From Lysobacterales bacterium (GTDB lineage: Bacteria; Pseudomonadota; Gammaproteobacteria; Xanthomonadales; Marinicellaceae), in the NCBI GenBank assembly GCA_026982315.1, contig JALSHI010000057.1:1-48256 (forward strand): a stretch of 48,256 bases of DNA, read 5' to 3'. Made by a program: the position numbers and the translations under genes. The notes beneath the pieces were generated by a model, which did no database searches, had not been told where the DNA came from, and was given only the letters and a program-made list of their open reading frames with translations. Within the stretch, counting starts at the first letter, position 1; every line of letters starts with the position of its first letter. Below, one piece after another: positions 17,004 through 48,256 of the stretch.

Positions 17004-17957
17004 TTAACAATCCAGAAAATCCGCCACCAGCTGGCGGATTTTTTTGTGACTGTCTGCGGTGCTTGGGTCCAGCCACACCGCGTCTTTTTCCTTGCGTAAC
17101 CAGGTCCATTGGCGTTTGGCCAGTTGCCGTGTGGCGACAATACCCCGGTAACGCATTTCCTTCCGGTCCAGTTTTCCGTCCAGATATTGCCACACTTGCC
17201 GGTAGCCCACGGCCCGCATGGCCGGCAAATCGGCATGGATGCGGGGGTGTTGCCGCAGTTGTTTGACTTCGTCAATAAAGCCGGTGGCCAGCATGTGGTC
17301 GAAGCGGTGTTCAATCCGTTGATGCAGCACAGAGCGGTCAGGTGGGGCAAGAATAATTTTCAGGGCCCTGAAGGCGCAAGCCTGTGACGGGTTTTGTTGG
17401 GCGAACCAGTAACTCAATGGCTTGCCTGTCACGTGCCACACTTCCAGGGCGCGTTGAATACGTTGGGGATCATTGGGGTGGATCCGCGCGGCGCTGGCCG
17501 GGTCAACGGCCTGTAATTGCCGGTGCATGGCCGGCCAGCCAATGCGTTTTGCCTGTTGCTCAAGTTGCTCGCGCGTGGCGGCATCAGCCTGGGGCAATGT
17601 GGACAGGCCCTGTTGCAGGGCGCGAAAATATAACATGGTGCCCCCGGCCAGCAATGGCACCTGGCCGCGGCCTGTGGCTGTATCGATTTCTGCCAGCGCA
17701 TCAGTACGAAAATCGGCGGCCGAGTAGCTGTGCCACGGATCGCGAATATCCACCAGTGCATGGGGCGCCCGCTGCAATGTGGCGCGGTCGGGTTTGGCGG
17801 TGCCAATGTCCATGCCCCGGTAAACCAGCGCCGAATCCACGGAAATGATATGGCCATTGAAGCGCTCGAACAGGTCGATCACGGCTTCGGTCTTACCGGC
17901 GGCGGTCGGGCCCATGATGCAAACGACACGAGGGCGCTGGTGGTGGGTGCTCCTCAT
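17004..17957 (-). CDS. miaA: tRNA dimethylallyltransferase
   Basis: This 317-residue enzyme transfers a dimethylallyl group to A37 of tRNAs that read UNN codons. The P-loop is G16-P-T-A-A-G-K-T23. Later motifs are 'IISVDSALVYRGMDIGTAKP', 'LLAGGTMLYFRALQQGL', 'HPNDPQRIQRALEV' and 'AVGYRQVW'. A longer frame exists upstream, but ATG 17957 overlaps the mutL stop as ATGA, the usual coupled arrangement of mutL-miaA. Its last 13 codons contain the hairpin that terminates adk on the opposite strand. No hfq gene follows, unlike the enteric operon. Confidence 0.95.
   Translation of the reverse strand: MRSTHHQRPRVVCIMGPTAAGKTEAVIDLFERFNGHIISVDSALVYRGMDIGTAKPDRATLQRAPHALVDIRDPWHSYSAADFRTDALAEIDTATGRGQVPLLAGGTMLYFRALQQGLSTLPQADAATREQLEQQAKRIGWPAMHRQLQAVDPASAARIHPNDPQRIQRALEVWHVTGKPLSYWFAQQNPSQACAFRALKIILAPPDRSVLHQRIEHRFDHMLATGFIDEVKQLRQHPRIHADLPAMRAVGYRQVWQYLDGKLDRKEMRYRGIVATRQLAKRQWTWLRKEKDAVWLDPSTADSHKKIRQLVADFLDC
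17016..17048 (+). terminator. adk terminator embedded in the miaA 3' end
   Basis: AAAATCCGCCA (17016-17026) pairs with TGGCGGATTTT (17032-17042) around CCAGC, followed by more T. On the plus strand this is a standard intrinsic terminator 44 bases after adk, and on the minus strand it encodes the last residues of MiaA. Confidence 0.8.
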
Positions 17958-19783
17958 TGGCCGCGCAAAAAGAACTTGTCCAGCTGTTTCATGTCCAGTT
18001 GCACCCAGGTGGGGCGGCCATGGTTGCACTGGTCGGCGCGCTCGGTGCGCTCCATATCACGCAACAAGGCGTTCATTTCCATGATGGTCATGGCACGGTT
18101 GGCCCGGACCGCGCCATGACAGGCCATGGTGGCAAGAATATCGTTGATGGCTTTTTCAATGGCGGTGGATGAACCCAGGGTGACGATTTCCGCCAGCACG
18201 TCCCGAAGCAATGATTCCACATCGGTGTTGGCCAGCAGGGATGGGACGCTGCGCACAATAAGTGATTCCGGCCCGCTGACATCCAGATTGAACCCCAGTT
18301 TTGCAAACCATGGCCGGTATTCTTCGACGGCCAGGGTTTCCTTTTCACTGACAGCCATGGTAATGGGCACCAGCAAGTTCTGGCTGCGAATGCCTTTTTC
18401 ATGGTTGTTCATGGCGGATTTCATCCACTCGTAAGTAATGCGTTCGTGGGCGGCGTGAATGTCCACAACCACCAACCCATGAGCATTCTCCGCCAAAATG
18501 AACACGCCGTGTAACTGGGCTTTGGCGTAGCCCAGGGGTGGGATTTCCTCCTTGTGTCCGCTATCAGGCTGTGGGGAATCGACAGGTTCAGGTATGGAAG
18601 GTACTGTGGCCATTTGTGCCAAATAGCTCAGGGACGACTCCGCCACTTGTGGTGAGACGGTGTGACTTTGGTTCAAGCGCAATCCTTGTTGCCAGGCGTG
18701 GCTGGCCAATGGCGTGTTGCTGGAGTTGGTGTGGTTGTCCGATGGAATCACAGCGCTTTCCCTGGGTGCATACACCTCGCTGCCAGGGCGGGTATGGGCC
18801 AGGGCGTGGTGTAATGACCCAAAAATAAAGTCATGCACGCGGCGGGCATTGCGGAAGCGCACTTCGTGTTTGGTGGGATGGACATTGACATCCACCAGCA
18901 CCGGATCCAGTTCCAGATAAAGCACAAAAGCCGGATAGCGGCCGTGGAACAGCACGTCCTGGTAAGCCTGGCGTACCGCATGACCAATGAGCTTGTCGCG
19001 CACCATGCGGCCATTGATATAGAAAAACTGGCGATCCGGCTGGGCGCGGTTCCAGGTGGGCCGGGCCACCCAGCCATGAAGCCGCATGGATCCCCGCTGT
19101 TCATCAATGGTGATAGCGTGATCGAAAAAGTCCGCGCCCAGTAACTGAGCGATGCGATTTTTCTGGGTGGATGCGTTATCTCCGCCAGTGGAATTGCGTA
19201 TGACCTTGCCGTTATGGCTCAGGGTGAAGCCGACATCAAAGCGCGACAGGGAGATTTTTTTAATCAAATCGTCAATGCGCAAGAATTCGGTGCGGTCGGT
19301 TTTCAAAAAACGCCGCCGGGCTGGTGTGTTGTAAAAAAGGTCGCGCACCGTTACCCGGGTGCCAGGTGGCGCAGCTGCCGGTTTGGGTGCCTGGCAGCGG
19401 CCGCCATCACACACCAGTTCACAGGCATGCTCGGCCTCGGCGGGGCGGCTGGTCAGGCTAAAACGCGATACGGAAACAATGCTTGGCAAAGCCTCACCCC
19501 GAAACCCCAGTGAATGCAGGGATTCCAGATCCTCCAGGGAATGGATTTTGCTGGTGGCGTGACGCTGGATGGCCAGGCGCATTTCGTCCGGACTCATGCC
19601 GCAGCCGTTGTCGCTGACCCGAATACATTTTTTGCCCCCCTGCTCAATGTCTATCTGAATCTGGCTGGCGCCGGCATCCAGGGCGTTTTCCACTAGTTCC
19701 TTTACCACCGAAGCAGGCCGTTCGATGACTTCACCGGCGGCAATCTGGTCAATCAGCAAATCAGGCAGTTTATGGATACGCAT
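17954..19783 (-). CDS. mutL: DNA mismatch repair protein MutL with endonuclease motif
   Basis: This 609-residue protein has the GHKL ATPase domain first: Glu29 in ELVENALDAGA, 'DNGCGM', 'GFRGEALPS' and 'GTRVTVRDLFYNTPARRRF'. A variable linker (about residues 340-410) follows. The C-terminal dimerisation domain carries 'DIHAAHERITYE', which fits the D-x-H-A-x2-E-x4-E metal motif of nicking MutL proteins, plus 'ACHGAVR' and 'CNHGRPT'. The organism therefore probably nicks the new strand with MutL itself rather than MutH. It lies between xthA (15 bases upstream) and miaA (4-base overlap), so the three are likely co-transcribed. Confidence 0.95.
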   Translation of the reverse strand: MRIHKLPDLLIDQIAAGEVIERPASVVKELVENALDAGASQIQIDIEQGGKKCIRVSDNGCGMSPDEMRLAIQRHATSKIHSLEDLESLHSLGFRGEALPSIVSVSRFSLTSRPAEAEHACELVCDGGRCQAPKPAAAPPGTRVTVRDLFYNTPARRRFLKTDRTEFLRIDDLIKKISLSRFDVGFTLSHNGKVIRNSTGGDNASTQKNRIAQLLGADFFDHAITIDEQRGSMRLHGWVARPTWNRAQPDRQFFYINGRMVRDKLIGHAVRQAYQDVLFHGRYPAFVLYLELDPVLVDVNVHPTKHEVRFRNARRVHDFIFGSLHHALAHTRPGSEVYAPRESAVIPSDNHTNSSNTPLASHAWQQGLRLNQSHTVSPQVAESSLSYLAQMATVPSIPEPVDSPQPDSGHKEEIPPLGYAKAQLHGVFILAENAHGLVVVDIHAAHERITYEWMKSAMNNHEKGIRSQNLLVPITMAVSEKETLAVEEYRPWFAKLGFNLDVSGPESLIVRSVPSLLANTDVESLLRDVLAEIVTLGSSTAIEKAINDILATMACHGAVRANRAMTIMEMNALLRDMERTERADQCNHGRPTWVQLDMKQLDKFFLRGQ

Positions 19784-21076: not shown

Positions 21077-21258
21077 AACTTGCCCCAAGGGAGTCAGACG
21101 GCCCCTATTCTAACCTGTGGAATGCGTTATCCTGCCTGCGATTGTGAAAATGAGCCGGTTTCAGAGGCAGAGAGGTTGTTCATGTGCGGTTGAGTCATGT
21201 TTATGGGGGGGCGATTGACAGCCCCTGATATAATTAACCCTTTAATTCAGGAAAGACC

Positions 21259-35176: not shown

Positions 35177-36066
35177 AATCCGCTTTGTTTCGGGCATTGT
35201 TATGGACAAGCAGCCGTTTTAGCCTCAAAACCAACCAGCGCCTGGCGGAAATACTGGCCGGAGGGGTGTGGCGCTGGTCCCGGCGTCACCGGCAGGTGAT
35301 TCAGGCCAATATCCACGCCTGCTTTCCCGAACTTTCAGCCGAGCAGCAGTCGCGCCTGGCCCGCCAGTCTCTGGCCGAAACACTGAAAACCCTGCTGGAA
35401 CTGGGGCCGGTATGGAAAACCCATGGATCCTCTGTTGATGATTTGATCCGGCAGGTGCATGGCTGGTCAGCCGTCCAGGAAGCGGTGGCGCGCGGTCAAG
35501 GTGTGCTGATCGCCGCGCCACATCTGGGCAACTGGGAGGTGCTGGGGCTGTTTTTGTCTCGCTTGCCGAATTTCTCGCTGCTATACAAGCCGCCGGAGGC
35601 CCGGGGGCTGGAAGATACCCTGCGACGGTATCGCGGCCAGAATGGCGCCAGACAAATCGCCGCCACACCCACCGCTGTGCGGCATATCTTGCAAACCCTC
35701 AAAACAGGGGGCGTGGTCGGTATCTTGCCGGATCAAAAACCCAAGGCTGGCCAGGGCGTTTTTGCGCCCTTTTTTGGACAACCGGCCTACACCATGACTC
35801 TGTTTTCCCGGCTGGCGGCAAAAACCCGGGCGCCGGTGTTTATCGCTGCGGCCATTCGCCGGGCCCATGGCGACGGTTTTGATGTCCATTTTATGCCATG
35901 CGATGCCGCCATTTATAGCCCAACGGAGGAATCCGTGGCGTGTTTGAATGCGGCCCTGGAAGCCATGGTGCGCCAGGCGCCAGCGCAGTATCAGTGGAAT
36001 TACAAGCGGTTTAGCATCACGCCGGCAGGCTGTGCCAATATCTACCAGCGTCCCGTTGAAAGCTAG
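35173..36066 (+). CDS. Lipid A / lysophospholipid acyltransferase, LpxL type
   Basis: This 297-residue inner-membrane-associated acyltransferase is of the LpxL/HtrB family. It has the catalytic HxxxxE box in 'APHLGNWEVLG', followed by 'LLYKPPEARGLEDTLRRYR', 'VGILPDQKPKAGQGVFAPFFGQPAYTM' and the C-terminal 'YQWNYKRF'. It would add a secondary acyl chain to lipid A using acyl-ACP. The slightly short length and the absence of a clear N-terminal membrane helix leave the exact acceptor undecided. It is coupled to the GNAT gene and overlaps the convergent dinB by four bases. Confidence 0.88.
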   Translation: MKSALFRALLWTSSRFSLKTNQRLAEILAGGVWRWSRRHRQVIQANIHACFPELSAEQQSRLARQSLAETLKTLLELGPVWKTHGSSVDDLIRQVHGWSAVQEAVARGQGVLIAAPHLGNWEVLGLFLSRLPNFSLLYKPPEARGLEDTLRRYRGQNGARQIAATPTAVRHILQTLKTGGVVGILPDQKPKAGQGVFAPFFGQPAYTMTLFSRLAAKTRAPVFIAAAIRRAHGDGFDVHFMPCDAAIYSPTEESVACLNAALEAMVRQAPAQYQWNYKRFSITPAGCANIYQRPVES

Positions 36067-37130
36067 AACAGGCGGGGTTGCTCCGGTTTGTTCCGGGGGG
36101 CGAAGCGCACACCCAGACCAATCAGGCGCACTGGCCGCTGGCTTCTGGACCAGGCAGTCTGCAGCAAGGCGCTAAAGTCAGCCAGACCGATATGTTGCCC
36201 GCGGCTTTGCGCCGTGGTGGTTTTAAAATCGGCAAAGCGCAGTTTGATATGGCGACTGTGTATGCTATCCCGGGGATGTTTGTGCAAATGCGTTTGCAGC
36301 CGCTTGAGAAACTCCAGATACAACCGGTGTAGCTGCTCCTGGCAGGCAGGCAAGCTGGCCATATCGGTGGGGAAGGTATCTTCCACACTCAGAGACTTGC
36401 GAATTCGGTGGCTGACCACTGGCCGGTCATCACGGCCATGGCTCAGTTCATGCAAACGCTGGCCAAAAGCCCCAAAGTGCTGTTGTAAGGTCAACAACGG
36501 AACCTGCTGCAACTGGGCGCAGGTTTGAATGCCCAGTTTTGCCAGTTTGGCAGCGGTGACGCGCCCCACACCGGGAATTTTGGAGACCGGCAAGGACCGC
36601 ATAAAAGCGCCAACCTGTTTGGGCGTGATGACTTTCTGTCCATTGGGCTTGTGCCAGTCACTGGCCACCTTGGCCAGAAACTTGTTGGGGGCTACACCGG
36701 CAGACGCCGTGAGTTGCTCGCCGTCGAAAATCCGCTGGCGAATGGCCTCGGCCATCCGCGTGGCGCTGCCTTTGCAGGCATCGCTATGGGTCACATCCAG
36801 AAACGCCTCATCCAGGGACACCGGCTCAACACAAGTGGTGAATTCCCGGAAAATGGCCATGATTCGGGCCGAAACAGCGCGATACAGGGGCATGTTGACT
36901 GGCAGGACGATAAGATCCGGGCACAGCTGTTTGGCCCGGGCCATGGACATGGCCGAATGTATGCCAAAGCGTCGGGCCGCATAGGAACAGGTGGCCACAA
37001 CGCCACGGCCTTGCGGGTTGCCGCCCACGGCGATCGGCTTGCCGGCCAGGGCCGGGTTTTCGCGCACTTCCACTGAGGCATAGAAACTGTCCATGTCGAT
37101 GTGGATGATTTTTCTGCGGCTATTCTGCAT
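36063..37130 (-). CDS. dinB: DNA polymerase IV
   Basis: This 355-residue Y-family translesion polymerase has the catalytic carboxylates in 'HIDMDSFYASVE' near the N-terminus and 'PVSLDEAFLDVT' (about residue 103). Further motifs are 'GGNPQGRGVVATCSYAARRFGI', the thumb region 'VSKIPGVGRVTAAKLAKLGI', and a C-terminal little-finger domain. There is no beta-clamp motif that I can identify with certainty at the extreme C-terminus, although 'PEQPRLF' resembles the usual QLxLF-like end. It is convergent with the LpxL-type gene, the coding regions sharing four bases. Confidence 0.95.
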   Translation of the reverse strand: MQNSRRKIIHIDMDSFYASVEVRENPALAGKPIAVGGNPQGRGVVATCSYAARRFGIHSAMSMARAKQLCPDLIVLPVNMPLYRAVSARIMAIFREFTTCVEPVSLDEAFLDVTHSDACKGSATRMAEAIRQRIFDGEQLTASAGVAPNKFLAKVASDWHKPNGQKVITPKQVGAFMRSLPVSKIPGVGRVTAAKLAKLGIQTCAQLQQVPLLTLQQHFGAFGQRLHELSHGRDDRPVVSHRIRKSLSVEDTFPTDMASLPACQEQLHRLYLEFLKRLQTHLHKHPRDSIHSRHIKLRFADFKTTTAQSRGQHIGLADFSALLQTAWSRSQRPVRLIGLGVRFAPRNKPEQPRLF

Positions 37131-44520: not shown

Positions 44521-46578
44521 TCACCCATGGCTTACAGAGTGCTCACTGGCAGCCGCATAACCCAGTTTTTCCACCCAGGGTTGTAAAATCTGCAAGGCTT
44601 CCCGCATATAGGCCAAATAATGTCGGTGACGATAACGCGATGCGGTGTAGACAGGTTGATTGGCCTGGTTGAAGCTGGGTGTGGTAATGGTGCCACGCTG
44701 GACAGTTTTTTGATGATAGCGTAACACATCGTCATGCCAGGGCAGGCCGCTTTGGGTGATGAGTTCCCGGGCTTGAGGCTCAAAATCGCTCACCAGTTTT
44801 TCATACACCACAGTGTGATAAGGGATTTGCCAGCTCGTTGTAGCGCTTTCCCATGCGGACAGCAAGGCGTTGTAAGTATGAGCAGCCTGGTTAATATCCA
44901 ACAGGTTAGTCATAAAGCTGTTCAGTTGAAAATTTTGCATAAAGCAGCTCAGTATCACATCAGCCGGATGCCGTTGGGCGAAAATAATCTTCGCTTCTGG
45001 AAACAGAGTGTGTACCAGCCCTGCATGCAATGCGTTCATGGGGGATTTGTCTACAACAGTTGGTCTGATTTTGCCAGCAATATAATCAGGCAGCAAATCA
45101 AAATACAACTTCCGTAGTTGCTGTTTTTCTTTGTGATTAAGTTGTTGAAGCCTTTCCGCGTAATTGATGGCAGAAATGTTTTCTATGCTTTCGTAAACCT
45201 CGTTCAGGATTTGCGCTTCCTCAAGCACGCTTACGTCGGGGTGGGCGGCGAGGATATTATCAATCAGGGTGGTGCCTGAACGCGGAAAGCCCACCACAAA
45301 AACCAGTTTATGAGGGGAGTCTGCCGGTTTGTCCTGCTTTTCTGCCTGTGTGGTTTGTGTGGGGCAGGCGTTAAAACTTTGCGCTATGGCTTGCGCCCGC
45401 TGAATAAATTTATCTTTTTGGGGAGAAACTTTCCGCCATATGATCCCCATTTGTTGGTTGGCTCGATAAAAAGCATCCCAGGCTGCGGAAAAATCCTTTA
45501 ACTTGTCGGCATTATGTCCTTTTTCATAATCGATATCTGCCAGTAAGGCCGGGTCGGGTTCTGGTTTTTTTGCAGCGATTTGTTGTGCGGTTGAGAGCAC
45601 CTTCAGCGCATCAATGTGGGCTTTTTGATGTCTGAGGTGTTTGGCTTCCTGTAGTGTAATTTCCAGATTATCGGGCCACTTGCTTTTGGCTTCTCTTAAT
45701 GTGGCTTTGGCAGATGCGGACTGACCGCTCATTTCCTGCAACTCAATCACAAAGGCATAAGCTTGTGGTGTATCTTCCTGTAATATGACGGGAAACAGGG
45801 CCGAGGCTTTTTTCCGCTGTCCACCGTAGCTGTACGCGCTGGTCAGTTCTTTTATTGCCTCGGCCATGTGTGGCCGTTTCTGCAAGCACGTTTCCAGGTG
45901 GGTGATGGCTTTGGCGTATTTTCTGCGGTCAATGCATAAACGCCCCAGCCACAATAATAACTTCGGTTCGTCGGGGTAATATTCAAGGGCCTGTTCTGCT
46001 GTGGTTGTGGCCTCTTTAAGTTGAATTAATACAGCCTGGGCTTTAATTAACCCTAGCCAGTCTTCCAATAAGGGCTGGGGTGCCTGGGTCAGGATGCGCC
46101 AGTGGGGAGATGCCTCGGAAAAAGCATGAGTTGTCTGCAGTACATTTGCCAGATTTCTTCGGTAATCCAGATTATCTGGTTGAAGATGCAGGGCTTTTTC
46201 CAGGCATTCAATCGCATACTCGAATTGTTCTTGTTCGCTTTTAATCAAGCCAAGATTATTGAGAGCTGCGGCATGATGGGGGTTCAGTGCCAGACAGCGC
46301 TCATAAGCCTGGCAGGCTTGGTCAAATTGCCCATTTTCCTGATAAAGCACGCCACGGTTATAATGTACCTCGGCATTCTCGCCAATGCGCCTGGAAAGCT
46401 CGTCAAACCACTTTTCCGCCGTGTTCAGATCGCCCTTGCGACCATGAGCGAGGGCAAGAAAAAGAAATAGCTGTGGGTGTTGTACTCCGGTTTTTCTTAA
46501 TTTGTGGCACAGGTCAATGGCCTTGTCAAAATTCTGGCTTTCCAGCGCTTGGATGATATGTTGGGGCGAAATGGGCAT
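44521..46578 (-). CDS. TPR repeat protein with C-terminal sulfotransferase domain
   Basis: The 685-residue product starts at ATG 46578 (MPISPQHIIQ); upstream in-frame sequence looks non-coding. The N-terminal two thirds (residues 5-370) is a solenoid of TPR helices ('AEVHYNRGVLYQENGQFDQACQAYERCLALNPHHAAALNNLGL' being two units, given here in part). The last 260 residues are a sulfotransferase: 'FVVGFPRSGTTLIDNILAAHP' (PAPS 5'-phosphosulfate loop), 'VDKSPMNALHAG' and 'IIFAQRHPADVILSCFMQNF' (3'-phosphate loop). The acceptor is unknown. Fusions of this kind resemble tyrosylprotein- or glycan-sulfating enzymes. Base composition is more A+T-rich than the core genes, which suggests acquisition. Confidence 0.9.
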   Translation of the reverse strand: MPISPQHIIQALESQNFDKAIDLCHKLRKTGVQHPQLFLFLALAHGRKGDLNTAEKWFDELSRRIGENAEVHYNRGVLYQENGQFDQACQAYERCLALNPHHAAALNNLGLIKSEQEQFEYAIECLEKALHLQPDNLDYRRNLANVLQTTHAFSEASPHWRILTQAPQPLLEDWLGLIKAQAVLIQLKEATTTAEQALEYYPDEPKLLLWLGRLCIDRRKYAKAITHLETCLQKRPHMAEAIKELTSAYSYGGQRKKASALFPVILQEDTPQAYAFVIELQEMSGQSASAKATLREAKSKWPDNLEITLQEAKHLRHQKAHIDALKVLSTAQQIAAKKPEPDPALLADIDYEKGHNADKLKDFSAAWDAFYRANQQMGIIWRKVSPQKDKFIQRAQAIAQSFNACPTQTTQAEKQDKPADSPHKLVFVVGFPRSGTTLIDNILAAHPDVSVLEEAQILNEVYESIENISAINYAERLQQLNHKEKQQLRKLYFDLLPDYIAGKIRPTVVDKSPMNALHAGLVHTLFPEAKIIFAQRHPADVILSCFMQNFQLNSFMTNLLDINQAAHTYNALLSAWESATTSWQIPYHTVVYEKLVSDFEPQARELITQSGLPWHDDVLRYHQKTVQRGTITTPSFNQANQPVYTASRYRHRHYLAYMREALQILQPWVEKLGYAAASEHSVSHG

Positions 46579-46727
46579 AAAAATGATTTCGAGGGAGTTG
46601 GCTTGTTTTGTGGTTTTTGCGGCAGCCCATTGTACCATGGCCCATGAATAGGCCATTGCTGGTTTATAACTCCCAGGTTATCGGGCTTCTTATTTTTCAA
46701 GAGCCTAAATTCAAAATCGGTCATTGC

Positions 46728-47802
46728 CTAAAACCATCCGCATTGAACATTATTCACTATAAAAGACCAATTTGAACCCGCGTTTATGGCGGCGATCAAA
46801 ATGCCTTCAGCATTATTATCAAAATTTACTGTCCCGCCTATCCAGTTTGCAGAATCCACATCGATTCCTTTCCAAGGGGTATGGATGATCCAGTTTGATC
46901 CTGTAAATCGCCAAATCCTGTAAGCAACCCAGTGTGAGGTGTTGGCATGCAGCTCCAGTCTGTATCGAGGGAAATGCTGATAATCAGGCTCAGAAGGCGT
47001 GCCAGCATTTATAGTAACTGGGCCGTCGAACATTTCCGCACCACAAGTTTGGCTGAAAACAGCTGATTGCCAATATGCGGTATTGCCAGTATTACTTGGA
47101 ATGATTTGGTACCATGCCTCAACTTCGCTATTAAAGCGAGAATTGCTTCCGCACCCTGCAGACCCCCTCGGGGTTCCCCCATTATGGTTGTCTCCTAAAA
47201 TGTTTCCCCATCCATGTAGTGTTTGATTAACTAGAGGCTCTTTAAAAAATAACATGTTTACCATATGGGTGGAGCCCCTGAAGTTGAAGGTGAAAAAGTC
47301 AAAAACGAGCCATTGCGTGCCTGTGTTGGGCGGTCGGTTTGTATTCAGGAACTTTTGTGAGCCGAGGGATTGTTGGTTGGCAGGGGTGTTGATGTCTTTG
47401 ACCAGACTGAAACTGCCTGGTAGAGGGCATACGGAAGTGCTGGATTTGTTATCACGAAACTTTTGTTGTGAGTTTTTACCGGGTAAGTTTTTAAGAATAA
47501 CGGGGTATTTTGAGTGGATCCTGGCCACTGTTTCCAGCGGAATTATTGTGTTTTCTATGTGGTAGCCTCCAGACTGATTTTGGGTTAGCTGTATGCTGTA
47601 TATATTCCCCTTCGAGTCAACATCCAGGTATACAGGGGGGGGCGCTTAAATCTATTGGCTGTGGAGGCGCATTGATGTCCAGGTTTGGGATAGGCTGAGG
47701 GACAAACTTTGCGTTAAGCTCAGTTTCTAAGAAGCTTTCTGCAGCGATACCAGAGGAAGCAAGACCCAGCAATGGCAGGAAGAAAAAGTGAATTTTTCTC
47801 AT
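46728..47802 (-). pseudogene. Secreted protein gene interrupted by a frameshift in a C8 run (possible phase-variable ORF)
   Basis: ATG 47802 opens a signal peptide ('KIHFFFLPLLGLASSGIAA') and a Pro-rich stretch, but the frame stops soon after a run of eight C on the coding strand (47635-47642). With one C fewer the reading continues as 'PVYLDVDSKGNIYSIQL' straight into the long frame ending at 46728, giving about 357 residues. The downstream part has 'WLVFDFFTFNFRGSTHMVNM', many aromatic residues, several cysteines and a C-terminal 'NNVQCGWF'; it looks like a beta-rich secreted domain. I recognise no family. The run may be a sequencing error, a decayed gene or a slippage switch. Confidence 0.6.
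47635..47642 (-). repeat. Homopolymer of eight C (coding strand) within the secreted gene
   Basis: Eight G on the plus strand. Seven would put the two halves of the secreted-protein gene in one frame; eight stops it within ten codons. Tracts of this kind near the 5' end of surface genes are classic slipped-strand switches. Confidence 0.6.
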
Positions 47803-48044
47803 GATGACTCCTTAAGCGGCTGTTGTGAACTAATTTGTATCATTAAATAAATAACGCTGTCAATATCCTTATGACTAGTTTCATGCTATTTTTATGCGCA
47901 ATTTAATTTTTTTATCAGGATGTGGGTTTGATGGAGCAGACTTAGGGAGTTGTTTTGGTGTCTGTTCAGTGTATTATGGCCACACCTTTCCCCTTGCAGC
48001 AGGTATGGAGAAAACCTTTGAATCTAAACGGTGGATTAGCATTG

Positions 48045-48256
48045 ATGAAACGCATTCTTTTTTCTGCATGGCTTGCGTCCGGCCTTGCACAAGCGAACTT
48101 GAGTGACAAGCTGAAAGAATCCGGCATTGATTTTACCCATTTCAATGGCATGACCGGCAAACTGTACTTTCACGAAATGATGGGCGGCGGCGTGGCCTTG
48201 CTGGATTACGATAATGATGGTGATCTGGATATCTATTTTGTGCAGGGTAATTTTAT
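48045..48256 (+). CDS. ASPIC/UnbV- and FG-GAP-type secreted protein, N-terminal part (cut by window edge)
   Basis: ATG 48045, nine bases after GGTGGA, opens a frame of 70 codons that runs off the window. Residues 1-17 ('KRILFSAWLASGLAQA') are a signal peptide. The rest, 'GIDFTHFNGMTGKLYFHEMMGGGVALLDYDNDGDLDIYFVQGN', has the FG-GAP/VCBS Asp-x-Asp-x-Asp-Gly calcium loop and the conserved opening of the large CRTAC1-like proteins with a C-terminal ASPIC/UnbV domain. Such proteins are beta-propeller surface or secreted proteins. It is divergent from the interrupted secreted gene. Confidence 0.75.
   Translation, partial: MKRILFSAWLASGLAQANLSDKLKESGIDFTHFNGMTGKLYFHEMMGGGVALLDYDNDGDLDIYFVQGNF

Follow-up and report, generated by a model that had tools for sequence, protein, structure and literature searches.

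The window analysed here, a stretch of 48,256 nucleotides, carries a gene for a predicted exported protein whose reading frame is broken at a run of eight C. The placement of this run, an intact homolog with seven C, poly-G runs in promoters across the genome and a second out-of-frame gene with a C11 run support the reading of the gene as a contingency locus. Slipped-strand phase variation is the explanation that we favour and consider probable, and the gene is probably one of a multi-locus set of such loci.

Reading frames at the C run

The G8 run on the plus strand at 47635-47642 corresponds to exactly eight C in the minus-strand gene 47802->46728 and surpasses every other G/C run of the window in length. 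The features of the gene are as follows.

46728..47802, minus strand: predicted exported-protein gene, 61 codons with C8 and 357 with C7 (open reading frame and intact homolog)
47635..47642, minus strand: C8 run (G8 on the plus strand), the proposed switch, codons 54-57
47740..47802, minus strand: signal-peptide-like N-terminus MRKIHFFFLPLLGLASSGIAA, cleavage likely after AA (heuristic and reading of the translation)
46731..47639, minus strand: downstream frame P0001, 303 aa, no stop, no family match (translation and family searches)
47803..47875, minus strand: leader; a ribosome-binding site (AGGAG) close to the ATG, preceded by TTGACA-18-TACAAA (sequence)

As sequenced, the C8 allele stops after 61 residues (MRKIHFFFLPLLGLASSGIAAESFLET...IPGC*). 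With C7, 357 codons are open according to the computed frame, terminating at 46728, and the C6 version again stops early. These results bear out two claims of the sequence-only reading, that eight C place a stop shortly after the signal peptide and that seven C encode a 357-residue protein; export of this protein is predicted, as its N-terminus is scored signal-peptide-like by the heuristic. A change of one unit thus toggles between the full-length (C7, 357 aa) and truncated (C8, 61 aa) products. With C8 at codons 54-57, the run also exceeds the PhasomeIt cut-off for homopolymers inside an ORF or promoter, which is G/C of at least 7 (PMC6321876).

The overlap between the end of the upstream frame and the start of the downstream frame is no more than 29 nt, of which the run occupies 8. 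Runs of 8 are not rare per se in the genome, where 19 runs of at least 8 and 63 of at least 7 are present. At the rate of 19 runs of at least 8 in 2,244,227 bases, the chance of a run falling in the 29-nt overlap is about 3e-4. This coincidence indicates that the break is caused by the run, irrespective of what the run means biologically. The unlikely feature is that a run sits exactly at the single point where the 357-codon frame, open everywhere else, is interrupted.

The AGGAG site and TTGACA-18-TACAAA suggest that transcription and initiation are intact. This promoter was read by eye; the pattern listing omitted it, the -10 element having no final T.

Homolog, neighbours and possible loss of the gene

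Searches of Pfam, NCBIfam and PHROGs gave no match to the downstream frame P0001, and none of its matches in the PDB was convincing. The weak PDB matches are designed repeat proteins and were judged to be chance, and a match to a Vibrio phage (24% identity, E 0.03) was taken in the same way. No relatives were found among plasmids, viral contigs and genome contigs, and the AlphaFold prediction on the single sequence was uninformative (pLDDT 35). The downstream frame has an only weakly positive codon-usage score, lower than that of one reverse frame; thus, the reality of the protein rests on its homolog and not on codon usage.

In 398 genomes of the order, the sole homolog was found in genome G124 of another family (L082:478-1584, minus strand); no more were found in a further 369 genomes of the class or in 39 of the family of G124. 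The homolog is intact, with 368 aa and its own signal-peptide-like start, and it matches the downstream part over all 303 residues (about 35-36% identity, E 5e-42). This intact counterpart over 303 aa indicates that the full-length product of the window gene is a genuine protein. The DNA of the homolog (TTC TCC CCC CCA CCT ATC TAT) contains C7 at the SPPP(I/V)Y site, at most one codon from the corresponding place in the window gene (AGC GCC CCC CC.. GTA TAC). The matching place agrees with C7 as the open state. The C7 of the homolog may be a conserved switch or a mere Pro-rich stretch, and as a by-product of Pro-Pro-Pro it would count against switching. Divergent from the homolog in the same genome is a gene for an exported, repeat-like protein, the 5' part of which contains in-frame G7 and G8 runs (L082:1947-1953 and 2111-2118).

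The surroundings of the window gene are as follows.

44521..46578, minus strand: TPR-sulfotransferase gene, downstream on the same strand (TPR and Sulfotransfer_3; start by homology to L081)
48045..48256, plus strand: divergent FG-GAP/UnbV gene running off the window (the L081 ortholog matches UnbV_ASPIC)
46578..48045: interval holding the accessory gene, about 1.47 kb, and about 185 bp in the congener G002, which has no such gene (ortholog comparison)

The domains and the L081 orthologs agree with the position given earlier for the tract, near the 5' end of the gene and between the TPR-sulfotransferase and divergent UnbV-like genes. According to the ortholog alignment, the TPR-sulfotransferase probably starts at 46578 and not at 46656. 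No terminator-like site was found between the window gene and the sulfotransferase gene, and the two genes are possibly co-transcribed. From the upstream position on the same strand and the lack of such a site, the OFF state might lower the sulfotransferase by polarity. Elsewhere in the window, an intact-looking MutL is encoded at 17954-19783 (minus strand) and a DinB-type (IMS) polymerase at 36063-37130 (minus strand). Slippage at runs is normally held down by mismatch repair.

In G002 (L081), a gap of 185 bp with no gene in it separates the TPR-sulfotransferase and UnbV orthologs, which are arranged head to head. None of 60 relatives, two congeners among them, has the gene, and by this comparison the window gene is classed as accessory. 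Its GC content is 45% (vs 53%), and its codon-position GC is 45/43/46 (vs 60/43/63). The low GC and the flat codon-position GC suggest a recent arrival.

As the gene is accessory, plain loss after acquisition is possible: an acquired gene would have suffered a one-base slip in its C run, with no selection for return. The absence from both congeners and nearly all relatives, the abutting flanks in G002 and the foreign-looking composition are all in keeping with such inactivation, and C runs are common sites of accidental frameshifts. However, no second stop or frameshift is present across the 302 codons downstream of the run, and other runs in the genome lie at exported-protein promoters and in an out-of-frame gene for a glycan-type methyltransferase. 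The sequence-only reading had taken many further disruptions as the mark of plain decay; none was found downstream of the run, and the one homolog has none either. We regard fixed loss as rather unlikely; it ranks after phase variation and before an assembly error.

G/C runs elsewhere in the genome and family

The G/C runs were counted by pattern searches, and all 19 runs of at least 8 in the genome of the window (G000) were inspected. The spectrum for G/C lengths of 7/8/9/10/11 is 44/12/5/1/1, with only a slight long tail, and the genome as a whole shows no excess of long G/C runs. Five of the 19 runs form the spacer between TTGAC and TANNNT.

G000:C9:27306-27336: promoter-spacer poly-G, locus L040
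G000:C15:21473-21503: promoter-spacer poly-G, locus L042
G000:C32:8997-9027: promoter-spacer poly-G, locus L043
G000:C50:26003-26033: promoter-spacer poly-G, locus L044
G000:C1:35727-35752: promoter-spacer poly-G, locus L036

The null for the TTGAC-N-Gn-TANNNT placement is 0.0004 per run at random window positions, where the positions include coding DNA and the pattern was picked after the runs had been viewed. The five runs are 8-10 in length and precede genes for a lipoprotein, an exported RHS-repeat protein and other exported proteins. The same arrangement is also present in congener and sister-genus genomes. A search for TTGAC...Gn...TANNNT detected 14 further sites in the other 32 genomes of the family, vs 1 for the reversed control, and the pattern is absent from 13 genomes of other families. 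According to the heuristic, a signal-peptide-like start is present in 14 of the 15 scorable genes downstream of the spacer runs, vs 5 of 38 ORFs of the window.

The lengths of the runs differ between related promoters, and two gene families retain the promoter run across genera while its length varies. In the lipoprotein family (proteins about 38% identical), the run is G9, G9 and G10 in G000, G009 and G023, respectively. In a second exported family (A2; 49% identity), it is G8 in G000 and G10 in G025. For a hydrogenase-protease gene, the promoter run is G8 in G007 and G7 in G025, and the flanks of the two are nearly identical. The sister loci thus appear to be of the porA type, with poly-G between the -35 and -10 elements, an exported protein downstream and a length differing in related copies.

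Most of the spacers measure 18-19 bp, as would be expected if the poly-G of the family promoters were a fixed regulatory element (e.g. an activator site or an altered spacer) without a length switch. Against such an element, related promoters have run lengths from 7 to 10, including the G7/G8 pair with near-identical flanks, and the Neisseria meningitidis porA promoter works by such length change, the run length setting expression (PMC3639595). We consider a fixed element unlikely. If it were correct, the support for switching of the window gene would fall to its own architecture.

Two further runs lie near genes. In the window, a G7 run at 21205-21211 is located 17 bp upstream of a perfect TATAAT and takes the place of the -35 element in a candidate promoter for an ORF from about 21259 (plus strand). 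A C8 run at L011:351-358 (G000:C21) closely precedes a gene for a small exported protein (MKAPCFALAVVFLLGASPYAAA...) and may belong to the promoter of that gene.

Within genes, two runs are out of frame, namely the C8 of the window gene and a C11 run in a Methyltransf_24 gene.

G000:C28:17967-17977: C11 run in the Methyltransf_24 gene (gene L058:3835-4724)

The Methyltransf_24 gene would be open with one C more or two fewer. Its neighbours are a large sulfatase-like gene for a membrane protein on one side and a glycosyltransferase-9 (GT9)-like gene on the other; the setting resembles the surface-polysaccharide type and is a classic one for contingency loci. In L007:13-1521 (minus strand; G000:C12), an ORF of 503 aa that has Reprolysin-like metallopeptidase domains, codons 5-7 hold an in-frame C9 run, and the true start of the ORF may follow this run.

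Length errors occur in runs of 8, and the homolog carries C7; the true run could thus be C7 and the gene intact, with C8 an error of sequencing or assembly. However, runs of 8-9 are in frame in nadK, a histidine kinase gene, ispF, birA and a Lipase_bact_N lipoprotein gene (Pfam was run for the last only, and the other four were recognised by eye). At least five intragenic runs in frame, in unrelated genes, argue against a general homopolymer error; the assembly error foreseen in the sequence-only reading gains no support from these runs, and we consider it improbable. As a further alternative, C8 could act as a programmed slippery site, where slippage of RNA polymerase or a +1 ribosomal frameshift yields some full-length protein from the C8 allele without a DNA switch. 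The context GCC-CCC-CCC-TGT with a stop a few codons on is compatible with a +1 shift or transcript slippage. Against this, C7 keeps the homolog in frame and makes recoding there unneeded, and we consider the alternative highly improbable.

Proposed switch and known systems

In slipped-strand phase variation, the window gene would be transcribed and its translation would begin normally. Replication slippage in the C run would then shift the frame of codons 54-357. Cells with C7 (by frame logic also C10) would make and export the 357-residue protein, and cells with C8 or C6 would make a short stub only; the sequenced genome would represent the OFF state. The same device may act elsewhere in two forms, as spacer poly-G between the -35 and -10 elements tuning the transcription of exported proteins, and as poly-C in the Methyltransf_24 gene of the surface-polysaccharide-like cluster.

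The phase-switch architecture proposed from the sequence alone holds in its layout, and the C7 of the homolog, the genome-wide poly-G spacers and the second out-of-frame poly-C gene are in agreement with it. The switching itself, as a reversible high-rate length change with expression following the length and a surface or secreted location of the product, we infer. Its best support is genomic, namely the recurrent runs elsewhere. Two further points stand against switching. The tail of the run-length spectrum is slight, unlike that of Campylobacter, where the spectrum peaks at 9-10. Also, C8 is short; runs at the cut-off of at least 7 include ones too stable for true switching (PMC6321876), and switching at C8 may be slow.

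The locus alone is an ordinary candidate, and its membership in a probable multi-locus repertoire raises its interest. The genus of the window and its sister genus belong to a little-studied gammaproteobacterial lineage and are known mainly from uncultured genomes, and no multi-locus phase-variation repertoire of this lineage is described in the literature searched. The chances appear evenly balanced that the two genera, which have no known disease link, carry such a repertoire, composed of poly-G promoter spacers and intragenic poly-C. Its targets would be lipoproteins, other exported proteins and a glycan methyltransferase. According to a 2025 review, the confinement of multi-locus phase-variable repertoires to pathogens is an open question (PMC11868660). 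If true, the present reading bears on this question, and a direct test case would be a lineage of environmental-type MAGs in which poly-G fills at least five promoter spacers, poly-C puts one or two genes out of frame and the arrangement is conserved across genera. The next question would be what the lineage evades or exploits (phage, grazers or host).

The sister loci resemble the porA promoter in the poly-G site between the -35 and -10 elements, in the exported proteins downstream and in the differing lengths. The comparison, made at the sequence level, concerns these loci and not the window gene, and the spacers here are mostly 18-19 bp with G7-G10. Campylobacter has phase-variable glycan methyltransferases, and the C11 run near the 5' end of the Methyltransf_24 gene, beside a glycosyltransferase-type gene, is similar; the methyltransferase family and the organism are different. 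The closest comparison for the window gene is with the intragenic poly-G/C genes of Campylobacter and Neisseria (e.g. the haemoglobin receptors hmbR and hpuA). The window gene differs from these in its short run of 8, its protein family new to the libraries, its Lysobacterales-related lineage and its switching, which is presumed from the architecture. It shares with them a G/C run of at least 7 in the 5' part, the one-base toggle and several candidate loci per genome, and its product, like theirs, may be exported or at the surface.
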